Positions 2,806 to 31,573 of a DNA stretch of 40,380 bases are shown piece by piece. The stretch covers positions 1 to 40,380 of the forward strand of contig JAGHCA010000078.1 in the NCBI GenBank assembly GCA_021160725.1. The letters are read 5' to 3'. The stretch comes from Dehalococcoidia bacterium. GTDB taxonomy: Bacteria > Chloroflexota > Dehalococcoidia > GIF9 > AB-539-J10. The translations under genes were made by a program, and so were the position numbers. The notes under the pieces were generated by a model that saw nothing but the letters and a program-made list of their open reading frames with translations, ran no database searches and was not told where the DNA came from. The first letter of the stretch is position 1; every line of letters starts with the position of its first letter.

Positions 2806-3004
2806 CACCCCTTCACCCAATTCCTAAAGGAGATTTTTGCCCAAAATCGCTAGGAACATATCAACTTTTATAGCATATGCTTTGGATATCGCGATGGCAC
2901 GACAGAAGCAGGATTTTCTGAGGCGGAACTCTACATCAGTGACGCTAAATAACTAGCCGTAATTGCCTGCCTTATCAGGCTTGGGCACCGAGTTCTAAAA
3001 ACTT

Positions 3005-3484
3005 TTATTTGCTGATTTGCTTCTCAGCCCAGTTGCCTGCCCAGGGTACCTTCCACATTTTACCGGTTCCCGCCTGAATCACAAGGATAATCCATAATAT
3101 GGCCATCATGATCCAAATAATAGTGCCAAGGACTCCGGCAAAAACCGCAAGGCCGGGTGAAAAAGTCGCGAATGCAATCGCTCTGAGTATCGTACTTAGG
3201 ATAAGATGTGCTGCGGTCAGAACACCGAAGGTCATAATGGATTGCCAGGCGTGAAATTTAACGAAGATGCTTTTCTTTTCCAGGACGATGAAGACTATTC
3301 CTGTTATCCAGCCAGCCACGTAGCAAAGAAGACCGGCAACATTGGCTGACAAACCTGTGCTGCTCTCCGCTTCGGGCTTAGCTGCACCTTCAGTTAACGT
3401 TGGCGAAACAGCGAGGACGGCACCACACTTAGAGCAAAACTTAGCCTCCTCAGGATTTTCTGCACCACATTGAGAGCAGAACAT
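3005..3484 (-). CDS. Zinc-ribbon membrane protein (DUF4870-like)
   Basis: A 159-residue protein of unknown function. The N-terminus is a zinc ribbon with C3-x2-C6 and C17-x2-C20 (MFCSQCGAENPEEAKFCSKCG). A short linker leads into a hydrophobic domain with three predicted membrane segments (about 45-68, 78-98, 103-135). The pattern KKSIFVKFHAWQSIM between the first two helices is typical of DUF4870-type proteins. The start chosen is the ATG five bases after a perfect AAGGAGG. A GTG two codons earlier overlaps that Shine-Dalgarno site and is rejected. The gene stands alone with its own promoter. A membrane stress or sensing role is only a guess. Confidence 0.85.
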   Translation of the reverse strand: MFCSQCGAENPEEAKFCSKCGAVLAVSPTLTEGAAKPEAESSTGLSANVAGLLCYVAGWITGIVFIVLEKKSIFVKFHAWQSIMTFGVLTAAHLILSTILRAIAFATFSPGLAVFAGVLGTIIWIMMAILWIILVIQAGTGKMWKVPWAGNWAEKQISK

Positions 3485-25163: not shown

Positions 25164-25937
25164 ATGATGTTATTAGCCATTGATATCGGGAACACAAATA
25201 TTAAGCTGGGGGTGTTTGATGGCGACAAGCTAAAAGCTGCTTGGAATTTGGCTACTGACATTCATCACACTTCAGATGAGTATGGGGGAGTGGTGCTCGA
25301 CCTCATGGAGAGGGGAAAAGTTCTGGCTTCAAAGGTTACTGGAGTGGTATTATGCGGCGTCGTACCACCACTGCTGCCTACATTCATGGAGATGTGTAAG
25401 GAATATTTGAATACTAAACCCTTGGTGGTCGAGGCTGGTATCAAGACAGGCATGCGCATCCGGTTGGATAATCCTCGTGAGGTTGGTCCTGATCGCGTGG
25501 TCAATGCCATGGCTGCCAAGAACCTCTACGGGAAGCCGGTGATAATTATTGACCTTGGCACTGCTACCACCTTCGACGTTGTTTCAAAGGAGGGCGATTA
25601 TCTTGGCGGGGCTATTGCCCCAGGCATTCTCGTAGCTACTGAAGCTTTATTCACTCGTACTGCTGCGCTCCCTCGGATAGAACTAATCCATCCCAAGCAA
25701 GCCATCGGCAGAAATACTATCGCAGCTATGCAATCGGGTATTATATTTGGTTACATTGAGCTCATTGGAGGTATGATTCGACGAATAGAAGAGGAATTGG
25801 GAGGCAAGGCGAAGGTGATAGCCACAGGTGGTCAGGCTTACCCTTTTGCCGAAGAGATAGTAGCTATAGACGTGATAAATCCCAATTTAACCTTGATTGG
25901 ACTGCGACTCATCTATGAAATGAATAGGGAGCAGTAA
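25164..25937 (+). CDS. coaX: Type III pantothenate kinase
   Basis: Phosphorylates pantothenate, the first step of coenzyme A synthesis. The 257-residue protein has the ASKHA-fold motifs of the CoaX class: phosphate loop LAIDIGNTNIKLGVFDG (about 3-19), GPDRVVNAMAA (active-site Asp), DLGTATTFDVV, and GGAIAPGI. Its TAA overlaps the coaBC ATG by one base, which implies translational coupling of two enzymes of the same pathway. Two adjacent ATG codons are possible starts, 25164 and 25167. Confidence 0.96.
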   Translation: MMLLAIDIGNTNIKLGVFDGDKLKAAWNLATDIHHTSDEYGGVVLDLMERGKVLASKVTGVVLCGVVPPLLPTFMEMCKEYLNTKPLVVEAGIKTGMRIRLDNPREVGPDRVVNAMAAKNLYGKPVIIIDLGTATTFDVVSKEGDYLGGAIAPGILVATEALFTRTAALPRIELIHPKQAIGRNTIAAMQSGIIFGYIELIGGMIRRIEEELGGKAKVIATGGQAYPFAEEIVAIDVINPNLTLIGLRLIYEMNREQ

Positions 25938-27136
25938 TGCTTAACAACAAAACGATAGTATTAGGGATTACAGGTAGTATTGCTGCCTATAAGGCAGCAG
26001 AGATTGCCAGCCGACTAACTCAGGCAGGGTCGAAGGTGAATGTAATCATGACTAAAGAAGCCATCCAGTTCATATCACCCGTTACCCTCCGGGCTGTTAC
26101 CGGTAGCCCTGTAGTTACTGAAATGTTTGATTTAGCCTCTGAGTTCAGCATTGAACATATCTCTTTGGCGCAAGCTGCTGATATAGTAGTTATTGCTCCT
26201 GCCACAGCTAATATCATTGCTAAACTGGCTGCTGGCATTGCTGACGACATGCTATGTTGCACGGTTCTGGCTACCAAGGCTCCGGTGCTTATTGCCCCAG
26301 CTATGGAAACCAATATGTATAATAACCCAGCCACCCAAGATAATTTGACCAGGCTCGAAGCTCGGGGCTTTGAGATTATTGGTCCAGCCAGTGGCTGGTT
26401 AGCCTCGGGGAAAGAGGGTGTGGGGCGACTGGCTGATATCAATGATATTATAGGTAGTATCTGCCAGGTGTTGGGGAGGGATGGAGATCTGGCTGGTAAA
26501 CATCTAGTGGTTACCGCAGGCGGTACTCAAGAGCCCATTGACCCGGTTCGCTACATCAGCAACCGCTCCTCAGGGAAAATGGGCTATGCTCTGGCTGAAG
26601 CAGCCCGAGACCGGGGAGCTAAAGTAACACTGGTTACAGCTCATACTTCTTTATCCGAACCTGCGGGCGTTGACATAATGCAAGCCGGCACAGCTCAGGA
26701 AATGTACCAAGCAGTGCAGGGTGTAGCTCCCCATGCTGATGCTCTGGTAATGGCAGCTGCCGTAGCTGATTACCGTCCGATAAAAGCGGCTAAAGATAAG
26801 ATTAAAAAAGACAAAGCCGAGCTAACCTTGAAATTAGAACTCACTCCAGATATTCTAGGCAGCGTTAAAGGCGACTTCATTAAAGTGGGCTTCGCTGCTG
26901 AAAGCATTAATCTGGTGGAAAATGCCAGGGAGAAGCTAAAGCAAAAGGGGCTTGACCTTATCATAGCCAATGATATCACGGCCGGCGATAGCGGGTTTGA
27001 CACTGATACCAATCGAGTAACCATAATTGACCGAGAGGGAAAGATTGAGAGCTTACCTCTTATGCCGAAACGAGAAGTGGCGGACAAGGTTTTGGATAGG
27101 GTGGCAGCATTGTTATCCAAGAGGAGCAAAAGGTAA
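25937..27136 (+). CDS. coaBC: Bifunctional phosphopantothenoylcysteine decarboxylase/synthase
   Basis: Catalyses addition of cysteine to 4'-phosphopantothenate (CoaB) and its decarboxylation (CoaC). The 399-residue length is normal. The N-terminal CoaC flavin domain shows GITGSIAAYKAAEIASRL and the active-site motif PAMETNMYNNP. The C-terminal CoaB domain (from about 190) shows VVTAGGTQEPIDPVRYISNRSSGKMG and AAAVADYRP. It follows coaX in the same transcript. A RAMA-domain gene begins four bases after its stop and may be read through. Confidence 0.97.
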   Translation: MLNNKTIVLGITGSIAAYKAAEIASRLTQAGSKVNVIMTKEAIQFISPVTLRAVTGSPVVTEMFDLASEFSIEHISLAQAADIVVIAPATANIIAKLAAGIADDMLCCTVLATKAPVLIAPAMETNMYNNPATQDNLTRLEARGFEIIGPASGWLASGKEGVGRLADINDIIGSICQVLGRDGDLAGKHLVVTAGGTQEPIDPVRYISNRSSGKMGYALAEAARDRGAKVTLVTAHTSLSEPAGVDIMQAGTAQEMYQAVQGVAPHADALVMAAAVADYRPIKAAKDKIKKDKAELTLKLELTPDILGSVKGDFIKVGFAAESINLVENAREKLKQKGLDLIIANDITAGDSGFDTDTNRVTIIDREGKIESLPLMPKREVADKVLDRVAALLSKRSKR

Positions 27137-27140
27137 GAAG

Positions 27141-28064
27141 ATGTCAATATTGGTAATAGATGGTGTAAGGTATGGGGAGTGGAGGCCTACAAATGAAGAC
27201 GAATTTGAGCGGATGGTCGAGGAGCATGCTGAAAATATATTCGGTGAAGAGTCTATATATCTTGAAAAGCACAGGCTAAGAACGAAATCGGGGATTGGCT
27301 CGATACCTGATGGATACGTTACCATTATTGGAGGCCAGGCTCAGTGGCACATCATGGAGGTGGAATTATCCACCCATCCATTATATGAGCACATAGTGCC
27401 ACAAATCAGCAAGTTCATTAACGGTATCAAAAATCCTTCAACCCAAAGAGATGTAGTTGATACTTTGTACCGGGAGATAGATAGCGACGACTTTCTTAAA
27501 CTCCGCTTAAGGAAGGCAATGAGGACAACCGAAACCTACAAATTTCTTTCAGACCTTATCTCAGAACCGCCAGTGGTAACAATCATTATAGAAAAATGCA
27601 CAGAGCAATTACATGAAGCTCTAAGTGCTCTTGCTCATCCTCGAATAAAAGTTGTTGAGTTTCAGACTTTTACCAGAGAAGGCGTTGGTTTAGATGTACA
27701 TGCCCATTTGTTTGAGCCTCTGTATAAACCCCGCCAGTCCCTAACGATGGGGTCAATCACTAGCACTGAAGGTGAAGGTAGGAGAGGCAAGATAGAAAAA
27801 AGGGTCACTTTACAAGATCTAGTCGACGCCAAATTAATTAATCCAGGTCAAAAGATTTTCAGGAATTACACGGATAAGCGATACGAGGCTGAGATCACAG
27901 CCGCAAGCAAATTAAAGCTATTACATGACGACACAATTTGGAACAGCTTATCAGAAGCTGCTCAACACATTACTGGTACAGCAATCAATGGATGGATATG
28001 GTGGTATACATTAAAAGATGGACAAGAATGCTTAATGGACGACCTTAGAAAGAAGTTACCTTGA
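27141..28064 (+). CDS. Putative PD-(D/E)XK-like nuclease with C-terminal RAMA domain
   Basis: A 307-residue protein of unproven function. The N-terminal half looks like a PD-(D/E)XK nuclease: an acidic helix EFERMVEEHAENIFG (21-35), D57 in IPDGYVTII, E73 and E75 in IMEVELS, and a QISKF helix (88-92) like those in NucS-type enzymes. The usual catalytic Lys after the second acid is not in place (EVEL). Residues about 218-306 resemble the RAMA domain found in methylation-linked restriction proteins: RVTLQDLVDAKLINPGQKIF, SLSEAAQHITG, and NGWIWWYT. The start is ATG 27141. It follows coaBC by four bases but has no metabolic link. It looks more AT-rich than coaBC, which could indicate transfer. No methylase lies nearby. 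Confidence 0.65.
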   Translation: MSILVIDGVRYGEWRPTNEDEFERMVEEHAENIFGEESIYLEKHRLRTKSGIGSIPDGYVTIIGGQAQWHIMEVELSTHPLYEHIVPQISKFINGIKNPSTQRDVVDTLYREIDSDDFLKLRLRKAMRTTETYKFLSDLISEPPVVTIIIEKCTEQLHEALSALAHPRIKVVEFQTFTREGVGLDVHAHLFEPLYKPRQSLTMGSITSTEGEGRRGKIEKRVTLQDLVDAKLINPGQKIFRNYTDKRYEAEITAASKLKLLHDDTIWNSLSEAAQHITGTAINGWIWWYTLKDGQECLMDDLRKKLP

Positions 28065-28127
28065 TTTATGAAGGAGCTATAAACCAAGGGCACTACGTTT
28101 TTTCGAGTATTGGCTAGGATCTATCCC

Positions 28128-30836
28128 ATGTTTGAAATACCTAAAGCCTATGAGCCAGGCAAAATAGAACAGAAGTGGTATGATTTCTGGTTCAAGCAGG
28201 GTTACTTTACTCCTAAGATAGACCCCAACAAGAAGCCCTTTGTCATTATCATGCCCCCTCCTAATGTCACCGGTGAACTCCACCTGGGGCATGCTCTGAC
28301 CGCGACGCTGGAGGATATTATGGTCAGGTGGCACAGGATGAAAGGGGAGCCCACGTTATGGTTGCCGGGAACTGACCATGCCGGTATTGCCACGCAAGTA
28401 GTTGTGGAACAGCAACTGGCGAAACAGGGGCAAACTAAGGAGGAGATAGGCAGAGAGAATTTCACTAAGTTGACCTGGGAATGGGTTAACAAGAGCCAGG
28501 AGAATATCAGACGTCAGCATCAGCTATTGGGAGCATCCTGCGATTGGACCAGGGAGAAATTCACCCTGGATGAAGGTCCGAGCAAAGCAGTACGGACCGC
28601 TTTTGTCCGTTTGTACAATAAGGGGCTGATTTACCGTGGAGAGCGAATGATAAACTGGTGTCCCCGCTGTCAAACTGCCCTCTCTGACCTCGAGGTAGTG
28701 CATAAAGATGTCATGGGGCATCTTTACTATATTCGCTACCCCTTAACTCAAAGTGAGGGCTTCGTCACCGTAGCTACTACTCGACCGGAAACCTTCCTCG
28801 GTGACATGGCGGTGGCTGTGAATCCTGAAGATGAGCGCTACAAGAACCTTGTGGGCAAAAGTGTCAGCTTGCCTATTATAGATAAAGAAATCCCAATAAT
28901 TGCTGATGATGCCGTTGATACTTCTTTCGGCACCGGAGCATTGAAGATAACTCCAGCTCATGACCCCACGGACTTCGAAATAGCCCAGAAACATAATTTG
29001 CCCTTGGTAAATATCATGAACCCCGATGCTACTATGAACGAAAATGCTGGTCCGTATCGAGGGTTGGAAAGATTTGCCTGTCGAGATAGGGTGTTAGCCG
29101 ACCTGAAAGACAAAAAACTATTAGAGAAAATCGAATCCTACGCTCATTCGGTAGGACATTGTAGTCGTTGCCAGACGATGGTTGAGCCCAAGGTTAGCCT
29201 CCAGTGGTTTGTTCAAACAGAGCCATTAGCTAAAGCTGCTATAGAGGTTGTTAAAGATGGCAGAATCAGGATAATCCCGGAACGTTTCACTAAGATATAT
29301 TTTGACTGGATGGAAAATATCAAGGATTGGTGCATCAGCCGACAATTATGGTGGGGACATCGCATCCCGGTATGGTATTGTCAGGATTGTGGCAAGTTGA
29401 CGGTATCGGTAGATGAACCATCAGCTTGCACTCATTGTAGTTCAAAACAAATCATCCAGGACCCTGATGTCCTGGACACATGGTTTAGCTCGGCGCTATG
29501 GACGCATTCCACACTGGGCTGGCCAGAGGATACCGATGACCTTCGCTATTTCTATCCTGGCTCAGTAATGGTAACCGGCTATGACATCCTTTTCTTCTGG
29601 GTCGCCAGGATGATTATGATGGGACTGGAGGATACTGGCGAGATACCTTTCCATACCGTTTACCTCAATGGTTTGATTCGCGACGAAAGTGGGGAGAAAA
29701 TGAGCAAACTGCGAGGAAACGTTATAAATCCCGCTGAAGCGATAAGCAAGTGTGGTGTTGATGCTCTCCGATTTGCTCTAACTACGGGGACTTCACCGGG
29801 GAATGATATAAACCTGGGCACGGACAAATTGGAATCCAGTCGCAACTTCGTCAACAAATTGTGGAATGCCACCAGATTTATCCTTCGGAGCCTGAATGAA
29901 GAAGGGCTGGAAGCTCAGACAATCCCGACTTTACCGGAACAACCGCAGAGAATAGAAGACCAATGGATTGATAGCCAGCTCAACCGACTTATCAAAGATG
30001 TCACTGAACTGATGGAGGATTTCAAGTTTGGTGAAGCGGAGCAGCAGATTTACGATTTTGTCTGGTCGAAGTTCTGTGATTGGTACGTTGAAATTGCCAA
30101 GATACGACTTCGTGGTCAATTAACTCCATCACCGCTGCCTTTTCTGGTCAATACATTAGAAAAATCATTACGTCTTTTGCATCCTTTCATGCCTTTCATC
30201 ACCGAGGAATTGTGGCAAAATTTGAAGGTGAGAGTGCTTCGCCCCGATATAACCGGGGGTCGCAATGACAATATTAAGATGCCGGCTTCCATAATGATAG
30301 CTCCTTATCCCCTCGCTGATGAAAGGTCCTTTGCTCCAGAAGCAGAGCGGGTGATGGATTCCGCAATAGAGATTATCCGCTCTATCCGTAACGCTCGGGC
30401 TCAATACAAGGTCAAACCAGGCAAATGGATTGAAGCTCGCATTTATACTGATGAACTTCTCTCAGGCCTTATTAATGAAGCGCATATAATAGAAACACTG
30501 GCTAAAGTTCGCCCCTTAGCAATACTCAGCCGCCAGAAAAGGGAATCTACTAAAGATAAAGTTCAAGTTTTAGTGTTGAAAGAGGCTGAGGTAGTTTTGC
30601 CTTTAGCAGGTATGGTGGATCGACTTGCTGAAGAGAAACGGCTGCTAAAGGAAGGCGAGGAAATCAAAGGAAGAATTTCCCAACTTAAATCTAGGCTAAG
30701 AAATAACGATTTTTTAAGCAAAGCTCCACCTCAGGTTATCGAAAAAGAGAAACAAAAGCTGGCTCTGCTCGAAGATAAGTTGAGAAGGTTACACAAGGAA
30801 TTAGCTCAACTGAACTCACCGCCGGCTGGTAGCTGA
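28128..30836 (+). CDS. valS: Valyl-tRNA synthetase
   Basis: Charges tRNA-Val. Counting from the ATG at 28128 the protein has 902 residues. A TTG start six codons earlier is possible. The class I HIGH motif is in PPPNVTGELHLGH (43-55). The editing domain includes TTRPETFLGD and GTGALKITPAHDPTDFE. Cysteine pairs appear in NWCPRCQTALS and YCQDCGK. The KMSKS motif reads KMSKL (524-528, EKMSKLRGNVINP). The C-terminus is a coiled tail (KSRLRNNDFLSKAPPQVIEKEKQKL). An unusual insertion lies between EELWQNL and ASIMIAPYP and contains repeat-like DNA. The last 21 bases overlap the end of a convergent gene. Confidence 0.97.
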   Translation: MFEIPKAYEPGKIEQKWYDFWFKQGYFTPKIDPNKKPFVIIMPPPNVTGELHLGHALTATLEDIMVRWHRMKGEPTLWLPGTDHAGIATQVVVEQQLAKQGQTKEEIGRENFTKLTWEWVNKSQENIRRQHQLLGASCDWTREKFTLDEGPSKAVRTAFVRLYNKGLIYRGERMINWCPRCQTALSDLEVVHKDVMGHLYYIRYPLTQSEGFVTVATTRPETFLGDMAVAVNPEDERYKNLVGKSVSLPIIDKEIPIIADDAVDTSFGTGALKITPAHDPTDFEIAQKHNLPLVNIMNPDATMNENAGPYRGLERFACRDRVLADLKDKKLLEKIESYAHSVGHCSRCQTMVEPKVSLQWFVQTEPLAKAAIEVVKDGRIRIIPERFTKIYFDWMENIKDWCISRQLWWGHRIPVWYCQDCGKLTVSVDEPSACTHCSSKQIIQDPDVLDTWFSSALWTHSTLGWPEDTDDLRYFYPGSVMVTGYDILFFWVARMIMMGLEDTGEIPFHTVYLNGLIRDESGEKMSKLRGNVINPAEAISKCGVDALRFALTTGTSPGNDINLGTDKLESSRNFVNKLWNATRFILRSLNEEGLEAQTIPTLPEQPQRIEDQWIDSQLNRLIKDVTELMEDFKFGEAEQQIYDFVWSKFCDWYVEIAKIRLRGQLTPSPLPFLVNTLEKSLRLLHPFMPFITEELWQNLKVRVLRPDITGGRNDNIKMPASIMIAPYPLADERSFAPEAERVMDSAIEIIRSIRNARAQYKVKPGKWIEARIYTDELLSGLINEAHIIETLAKVRPLAILSRQKRESTKDKVQVLVLKEAEVVLPLAGMVDRLAEEKRLLKEGEEIKGRISQLKSRLRNNDFLSKAPPQVIEKEKQKLALLEDKLRRLHKELAQLNSPPAGS
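30227..30282 (+). repeat. Repeat-like in-frame insertion in valS
   Basis: The segment codes for about 18 residues (KVRVLRPDITGGRNDNIK) where ValRS proteins usually have a short loop before the conserved SIMIAPYP. The DNA contains GCCCCGATATAACCGGGG, a near-palindrome, followed by GTCGCAATGAC, a phrase typical of dispersed bacterial repeats. It is in frame and the rest of valS is intact. Confidence 0.45.
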
Positions 30837-31529
30837 CAACTCGCAGCCTTCAAGAGCGGAACGACGAAGCGGTTTAGCTTTGAGGGCTAATACCTCGTGT
30901 AGCTTGGTCAGGGCTTTTTTAGTATCACTAGCCACGCAGGATTTATCATGGATTTTTATGCGATATTTAAATAACCAGTAGGTAAATTCATTAAGTTCGG
31001 TTAAGCTTATAGACCTGAGTTGAGGATAATGTCTCTCCTTCCTGAACTGTTTCAGGAGGGCAAATTGATTGTCACCATAAATGTGTTGGTAGGCTTCGTC
31101 AACTATTCCGTTGTCGTTGTTCAAGCCTAAAACTCTCCTTTTCTTTCGTATCTCTTCAGTTACAGCCAAAATGAGGAATTTTTCCACAAGAATGCCATAG
31201 AAATAGTTGAGGTAGGTCTGATATTTAGTAGTACCAATTAGGTGCTTAAACTCGTCTTTAGATAATTCTATTGGTGGTATACCAAAGAATAGAAGATTAA
31301 TCCGCTCGTTTTCTGGAATAAGGTCATCGAGTTCTTCACATAACCTCTCTGCCAGAATCAGCCAGTCGAAGGCTTCGTTGTCAATGAGATAGCAATAATG
31401 CCGCCCATTGTAGTCCTCTTCAGGACTACGCCACAGGCGAATGGTTTCGAGCATGGCCACATACCAATGCTTGTCTTCAGCAATAGAATTTCTCAGTCCT
31501 TGGATTGCCTGAGTATCTCGCGTGGGCAC
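30816..31529 (-). CDS. Hypothetical protein
   Basis: A 237-residue soluble protein that I do not recognise. It has no signal peptide and no evident membrane segments. The sequence is rich in aromatic and charged residues and looks mainly helical, for example LIDNEAFDWLILAERLCEEL and YQTYLNYFYGILVEKFLILAVTEEIRKKRR. The start is a GTG at 31529, six bases after GGAGGTG. A GTG three codons earlier overlaps that site. It has its own strong promoter and converges on valS with a 21-base overlap of the 3' ends. No conserved catalytic motif was seen. Confidence 0.75.
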   Translation of the reverse strand: MPTRDTQAIQGLRNSIAEDKHWYVAMLETIRLWRSPEEDYNGRHYCYLIDNEAFDWLILAERLCEELDDLIPENERINLLFFGIPPIELSKDEFKHLIGTTKYQTYLNYFYGILVEKFLILAVTEEIRKKRRVLGLNNDNGIVDEAYQHIYGDNQFALLKQFRKERHYPQLRSISLTELNEFTYWLFKYRIKIHDKSCVASDTKKALTKLHEVLALKAKPLRRSALEGCELSATSRR

Positions 31530-31573
31530 TCCGGCCACCTCCGCAATTATTCTAAGAACCGTTTATTAGGTAT

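Follow-up and report, generated by a model that had tools for sequence, protein, structure and literature searches.

In the window (the whole 40,380-nucleotide stretch of Dehalococcoidia DNA analysed here), the gene at 27141-28064 (+ strand, 307 residues) joins a PD-(D/E)XK-like domain to a RAMA domain, and its product is probably, at roughly 0.6, a restriction-type defence nuclease made of a single chain, whose target-recognition domain can be exchanged. The N-terminal domain, which carries D-(x15)-E-x-E instead of D-ExK, would be the constant cutting part, and the C-terminal RAMA domain would be the target-recognition part that directs the cutter to foreign DNA, presumably that of phages. 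Orthologues retain the cutter at a coaBC-X-valS dock and differ in their readers (RAMA, B3, DUF5655, DUF4268-type and others), which would be exchanged by recombination, as might be expected where phages escape a recognition specificity.

The open reading frame is intact, with an ATG at 27141 and a stop at 28062-28064, and the opposite strand is rich in stops; the gene described in the first-pass annotation is confirmed. It begins 4 bp past the stop codon of coaBC (25937-27136, +) and is followed by valS (28110-30836, +), the conserved upstream and downstream flanks of its slot; the description of a gene riding behind coaX-coaBC holds, and the slot is kept in other genomes. The source genome is 1.45 Mb in 104 contigs and 96% complete, and its relatives are Dehalococcoidia metagenome bins. 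The remaining genes of the window, named by reading, are housekeeping ones: recR, dnaX, lon, gyrA, gatAB, glnA, an EF-G, ETF subunits, coaX, coaBC, valS, polX, polA and mutM. Since they read this way, the window shows no defence island around the RAMA gene, nor phage or mobile genes near it. No methylase or helicase lies near the gene within the window, as had been noted from the start, and the window has no GHKL ATPase or SF2 helicase. Past valS, a 240-residue frame (30816-31538, - strand) has no Pfam match above cut-off, and a clear relative occupies the same place in two other loci (L002 and L003).

The N-terminal domain (residues 1-197; 27141-27731, +) is the unit common to homologues with other C-termini, and is delimited by alignment, structural model, NucS/EndoMS neighbours and homology to operon nucleases. 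Profile searching, proposed earlier as a check, identified RAMA in the second half of the protein but gave zero matches for residues 1-196 in Pfam and NCBIfam; sequence searches of solved structures with the whole protein or an N-domain profile returned chance matches only. An AlphaFold2 model built on a 14-row alignment runs through helix A (19-34), strands at 38-41, 58-62 and 68-75, a helix at 81-95, an all-helical stretch, a strand at 145-150, a helix at 155-164 and a strand at 169-173, with pLDDT blocks over residues 10-180 mostly at 82-92 and lower, 58-67, at 41-60. The predicted fold is a PD-(D/E)XK core of alpha-beta-beta-beta-alpha-beta topology. D57 opens the second strand of the model and E73 and E75 close the third, as in PD-(D/E)XK proteins, which answers at the level of topology the structural check that had been proposed; D57 would then neighbour E73 if residues 63-67 close an antiparallel hairpin. 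Foldseek against the PDB places NucS/EndoMS at ranks 1-4 with weak scores (E 0.14-0.34, probability 0.44-0.84), and Can2, Exo5 and Bax1 further down the list. These weak matches gain weight because the neighbours all belong to a single superfamily of PD-(D/E)XK nucleases. NucS/EndoMS, the best structural neighbour, also has a D, an E and then a Q in helix B, but those enzymes carry ExK where this domain has E-x-E, and there is no sequence match. Membership in NucS itself was rejected, as no family match turned up in 20 genomes of the group and the structural similarity is weak.

Alignment of 13 N-terminal domains, with identity down to 23%, leaves K43, P56, D57, E73, E75, L76, H79, H84, Q88 and F92 invariant. 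In the window, on the + strand, the codons of D57, at the start of the second core strand, are at 27309-27311, those of E73-x-E75 at 27357-27365, that of Q88, in helix B (QISKF), at 27402-27404, and that of K43 at 27267-27269. E75 sits at the place of the usual catalytic lysine, which is absent: the position two after E73 is glutamate in every member, and the most distant relatives keep E-x-E as well (VEVEL in G405 and G521, VEAEM in G665). The acidic residues and the QISKF helix thus lie where the first-pass annotation had put them. Its PD-(D/E)XK layout stands for the topology and the strand positions of D and E in the model, but not for the canonical lysine. It was also correct that the lysine is lacking; because D57, E73, E75, Q88 and K43 are invariant across the 13 homologues, this is a fixed, family-wide E-x-E signature rather than decay, and is no evidence of a dead domain. 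As E75 replaces lysine in all members, the domain is classed as PD-(D/E)XK-like and not as a canonical member. For the same reason cleavage is not to be assumed. BamHI uses an E-x-E site, however, which makes a putative nuclease activity plausible, and K43 is a candidate migrated active-site lysine that could supply the missing charge.

The N-terminal domain is homologous to a small nuclease family (hhalign 98.4%, E 4e-15). This family turned up in three Chloroflexota genomes (G405, G665 and G521), each time together with genes for a DNA methylase, a GHKL ATPase and a helicase of the ResIII type. The sets lie at L026:5512-10241, L042:5734-10302 and L043:525-5246. Operons of methylase, ResIII helicase and GHKL ATPase have been predicted to be restriction-modification systems, and the endonuclease described for these MORC/paraMORC operons reads E-D-ExK, unlike the E-x-E found here (PMC2292703). 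Such operons hold distant E-x-E homologues of the N-terminal domain, whereas the window gene is solitary and has a RAMA reader. The L026 helicase matches PADLOC PbeA (1.2e-65), and the methylase of that set lies on the strand opposite to its three partner genes.

Could the domain instead be a catalytically dead DNA-binding protein of PD-(D/E)XK fold, such as a nucleoid factor or a regulator of the coaBC-valS operon? Glutamate in place of the catalytic lysine in all members would fit, and a start 4 bp after coaBC makes co-expression possible. This explanation is nevertheless rather improbable. Invariance of D57, E73 and E75 down to 23% identity would be unexpected under it, the E-x-E is also kept in restriction-type operons, and the BamHI site speaks against equating E-x-E with inactivity. 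The gene is also missing from most relatives, in which coaBC and valS simply adjoin each other (no more than 180 bp apart in 35 of the 54 relatives where the gap could be measured), and exchange of the reader is at odds with a single operator.

The RAMA domain (PF18755; residues 209-306; 27765-28058, +), the exchangeable C-terminal reader of the putative restriction-type nuclease, is matched at E 5.5e-15 and 55.7 bits against a Pfam cut-off of 35.2, which confirms the first-pass assignment. Three orthologues pass the cut-off too, and DUF2924 and DUF4357 (PF14267) overlap the region as weaker Pfam matches. The AlphaFold2 model of this half is poor (pLDDT 32-58), the alignment being too shallow there. 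RAMA has been put forward as a reader of 6mA, and RAMA-Mrr(PD-QXK)-NTPase and GIY-YIG-RAMA fusions have been noted as observations only (PMC11037411). They pair RAMA with a nuclease, as here, but with another nuclease family or domain order, and the window protein has no NTPase. DUF4268 and DUF4357, the latter weakly matched by the window protein, are accessory domains of the GmrSD Type IV enzymes (PMC4619093). Such precedents, together with the lack of an adjoining methylase in the window or at the slot in the relatives inspected, speak for a strictly modification-dependent (Type IV) scheme, in which foreign DNA with adenine methylation or some other modification would be recognised by RAMA and cut by the nuclease, with no need of a partner methylase. 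As a special case of the restriction-type reading, whose confidence overlaps with its own, this scheme is possible but doubtful. The host genome has seven N6/N4-methylase matches and one HsdM-type match, unlinked to the RAMA gene, so a general 6mA-cutter would threaten its host. The evidence that RAMA prefers 6mA is disputed, as an attempt to confirm the 6mA-DNA preference of the RAMA protein MPND failed (PMC11037411), RAMA is present in ordinary methylases as well (a Caulobacter control included), and the B3 domain exchanged for it in homologues suggests, by analogy, the reading of sequence.

The gene family is patchy, and its rarity, like the want of a defence island nearby, counts against the restriction-type reading. 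Since genome bins are incomplete, its absences are approximate: homologues occur in 8 of 84 genomes of the order, 0 of 19 of the same genus, 10 of 393 sampled genomes of the class (two divergent ones included) and 6 of 400 sampled from the phylum. A scan of public genomes by short peptide patterns, a method that misses distant relatives easily, gave three loci; members may therefore exist outside Chloroflexota. Where the gene is present its place is constant. The neighbourhood survey that had been suggested found coaBC directly before it in all 12 close members (G000, G024, G026, G043, G037, G056, G424, G410, G077, G169, G400 and G090), and valS next downstream in ten, the exceptions being G424, where the contig ends, and G077, where a different gene follows. 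None of the close members inspected has a linked methylase at the slot. A form with DUF4268 (G239) sits at another locus. Identities of the N-terminal domain and of coaBC correlate (Spearman 0.62), consistent with partly vertical inheritance plus many losses. A phage-borne origin is without support, as no relatives were found among phages or plasmids and none was confirmed in viral contigs.

Relatives that have neither the gene nor abutting flanks carry small frames between coaBC and valS, including HicB-like (8) and B3-domain (5) ones, one PIN toxin-like and one NYN-like, names that rest on similarity to frames read in this analysis. The gap is in its own right an insertion hotspot, with small HicB-like, VapC/PIN-like and NYN-like frames differing by genome (junctions in L046, L050, L059, L073, L077, L078, L085, L087, L091 and L097, and at L002 5598-5999).

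Reader exchange is seen among the homologues. RAMA follows the N-terminal domain in G000, G024, G026 and G043, and a B3-type domain does so in G037, G056, G424 and G400. Others end in DUF5655 (G169, 7.7e-9), DUF4268 (G239, 3.6e-33) or a DUF4268-type domain (G410, by its PADLOC PDC-S11 match), in an unnamed domain common to G090 and G268, or in another unnamed one (G077). A model of the B3-type domain from eight sequences (pLDDT 89.7) matches in Foldseek the B3 domains of VAL1 from plants and of three restriction proteins, LlaJI.R1 of H. pylori, BfiI and R.NgoAVII (probability 0.98-1.0, E 0.0035-0.09); a sequence search of solved structures with a three-row B3-type alignment gave no match. Tree tests reject a single clade of RAMA-bearing N-terminal domains (p-AU 4.6e-73) and, less strongly, a single clade of B3-bearing ones (p 0.0125). 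The tree is otherwise poorly resolved, with three of nine branches starred, and individual exchanges are therefore left uncounted. The G026 protein looks like a mosaic: its N-terminal domain is 73% identical to that of G077, which has another C-terminal domain, and 53% to the window's, while its RAMA domain is 81% identical to the window's.

BfiI, R.NgoAVII and R.CglI place a nonspecific nuclease before a C-terminal B3 domain that reads the target sequence (PMC4267653), the same order and reader fold as in the B3-bearing homologues. Their nuclease is of the PLD type, not PD-(D/E)XK-like, and they have linked methylases, NgoAVII and CglI also an ATPase partner. The shared order raises a second special case of the restriction-type reading, again with overlapping confidence, in which the protein would cut a defined unmodified sequence like a Type II enzyme and the host would be protected by a methylase encoded at another genomic site. 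Methylases do exist in the host genome, and distant relatives of the N-terminal domain do adjoin them. Such an arrangement is still unlikely, given that no linked methylase appears in the window or in any close member inspected. The window's RAMA is moreover the only one detected in its genome, so that no methylase there shares the reader.

In several Dehalococcoidia genomes coaBC, which belongs to pantothenate metabolism, itself ends in a domain of the B3 type, the nuclease's alternative reader (L021:774-1079, +; L046:1204-1503, -; L073:1219-1515, -; L078, about 140-436, +; L079, about 2871-3150, -), and one stands free in L059. A tentative extension of the restriction-type reading, of somewhat less than even probability, is that the slot is an undescribed single-gene defence locus, with a constant E-x-E nuclease at coaBC-valS and readers recombined between lineages, some of them stranded there as coaBC fusions or a stand-alone frame. 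The last 110-120 residues of L016:1126-2070 and L018:1492-2490, two homologues of the N-terminal domain, form a shared, unnamed further candidate reader, with no Pfam match and the pattern DTIVVPA..EGF...FLGE.RWYA.R....I..IA.Y...P.SAITH.

Comparison with PADLOC ties the readers to known defence candidates. The window protein is matched in its RAMA half only, best by PDC-S14 (3.7e-14), over profile positions 173-271 of 280 and so short of the full profile. Three C-terminal domains in all match single-gene candidates, PDC-S14 (RAMA), PDC-S11 (DUF4268) and PDC-S18 (DUF5655); apart from the PDC-S18 match, which runs on some 35-50 residues into the N-terminal domain, these matches are confined to the C-terminal domain. 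For PDC-S14, an overlap with GAO_29 and a restriction-like mechanism have been reported (PMC10855318). The three PDC families, which have the status of candidates, resemble the window protein in being single genes of about 280-375 residues in which the same C-terminal domains follow an N-terminal part of comparable length, but the N-terminal domain of the window protein belongs to an E-x-E lineage of its own that keeps to a single locus. With hhalign it has no match to individual Marinitoga and Klebsiella nucleases that carry DUF4268, whose N-terminal domains also read D...ExQ/ExK by eye; on a Klebsiella plasmid DUF4268 is flanked by the S and R genes of a Type I system. The stand-alone, restriction-like factor proposed in the first-pass annotation gains from the lone gene, the conserved slot, the exchanged reader and the PDC-S14, S11 and S18 matches, whereas its dependence on modification is doubtful, given RAMA in ordinary methylases, the B3 alternative and the host's N6/N4 methylases.

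Nature here provides one nuclease with a whole set of different readers at one locus, so that the targets of RAMA, DUF4268 and DUF5655 could be compared on a common cutter, and three single-gene phage-defence candidates are tied together. Specificity exchange is established for the S subunits of Type I systems, and the series suggests that it occurs in single-chain factors too. The family-wide E-x-E site poses a clear biochemical question. Member genomes are also rich in N6/N4-methylase matches (PF01555), up to 13 in G037, many of them partial or with inner stops, possibly reflecting a high turnover of restriction-modification genes.
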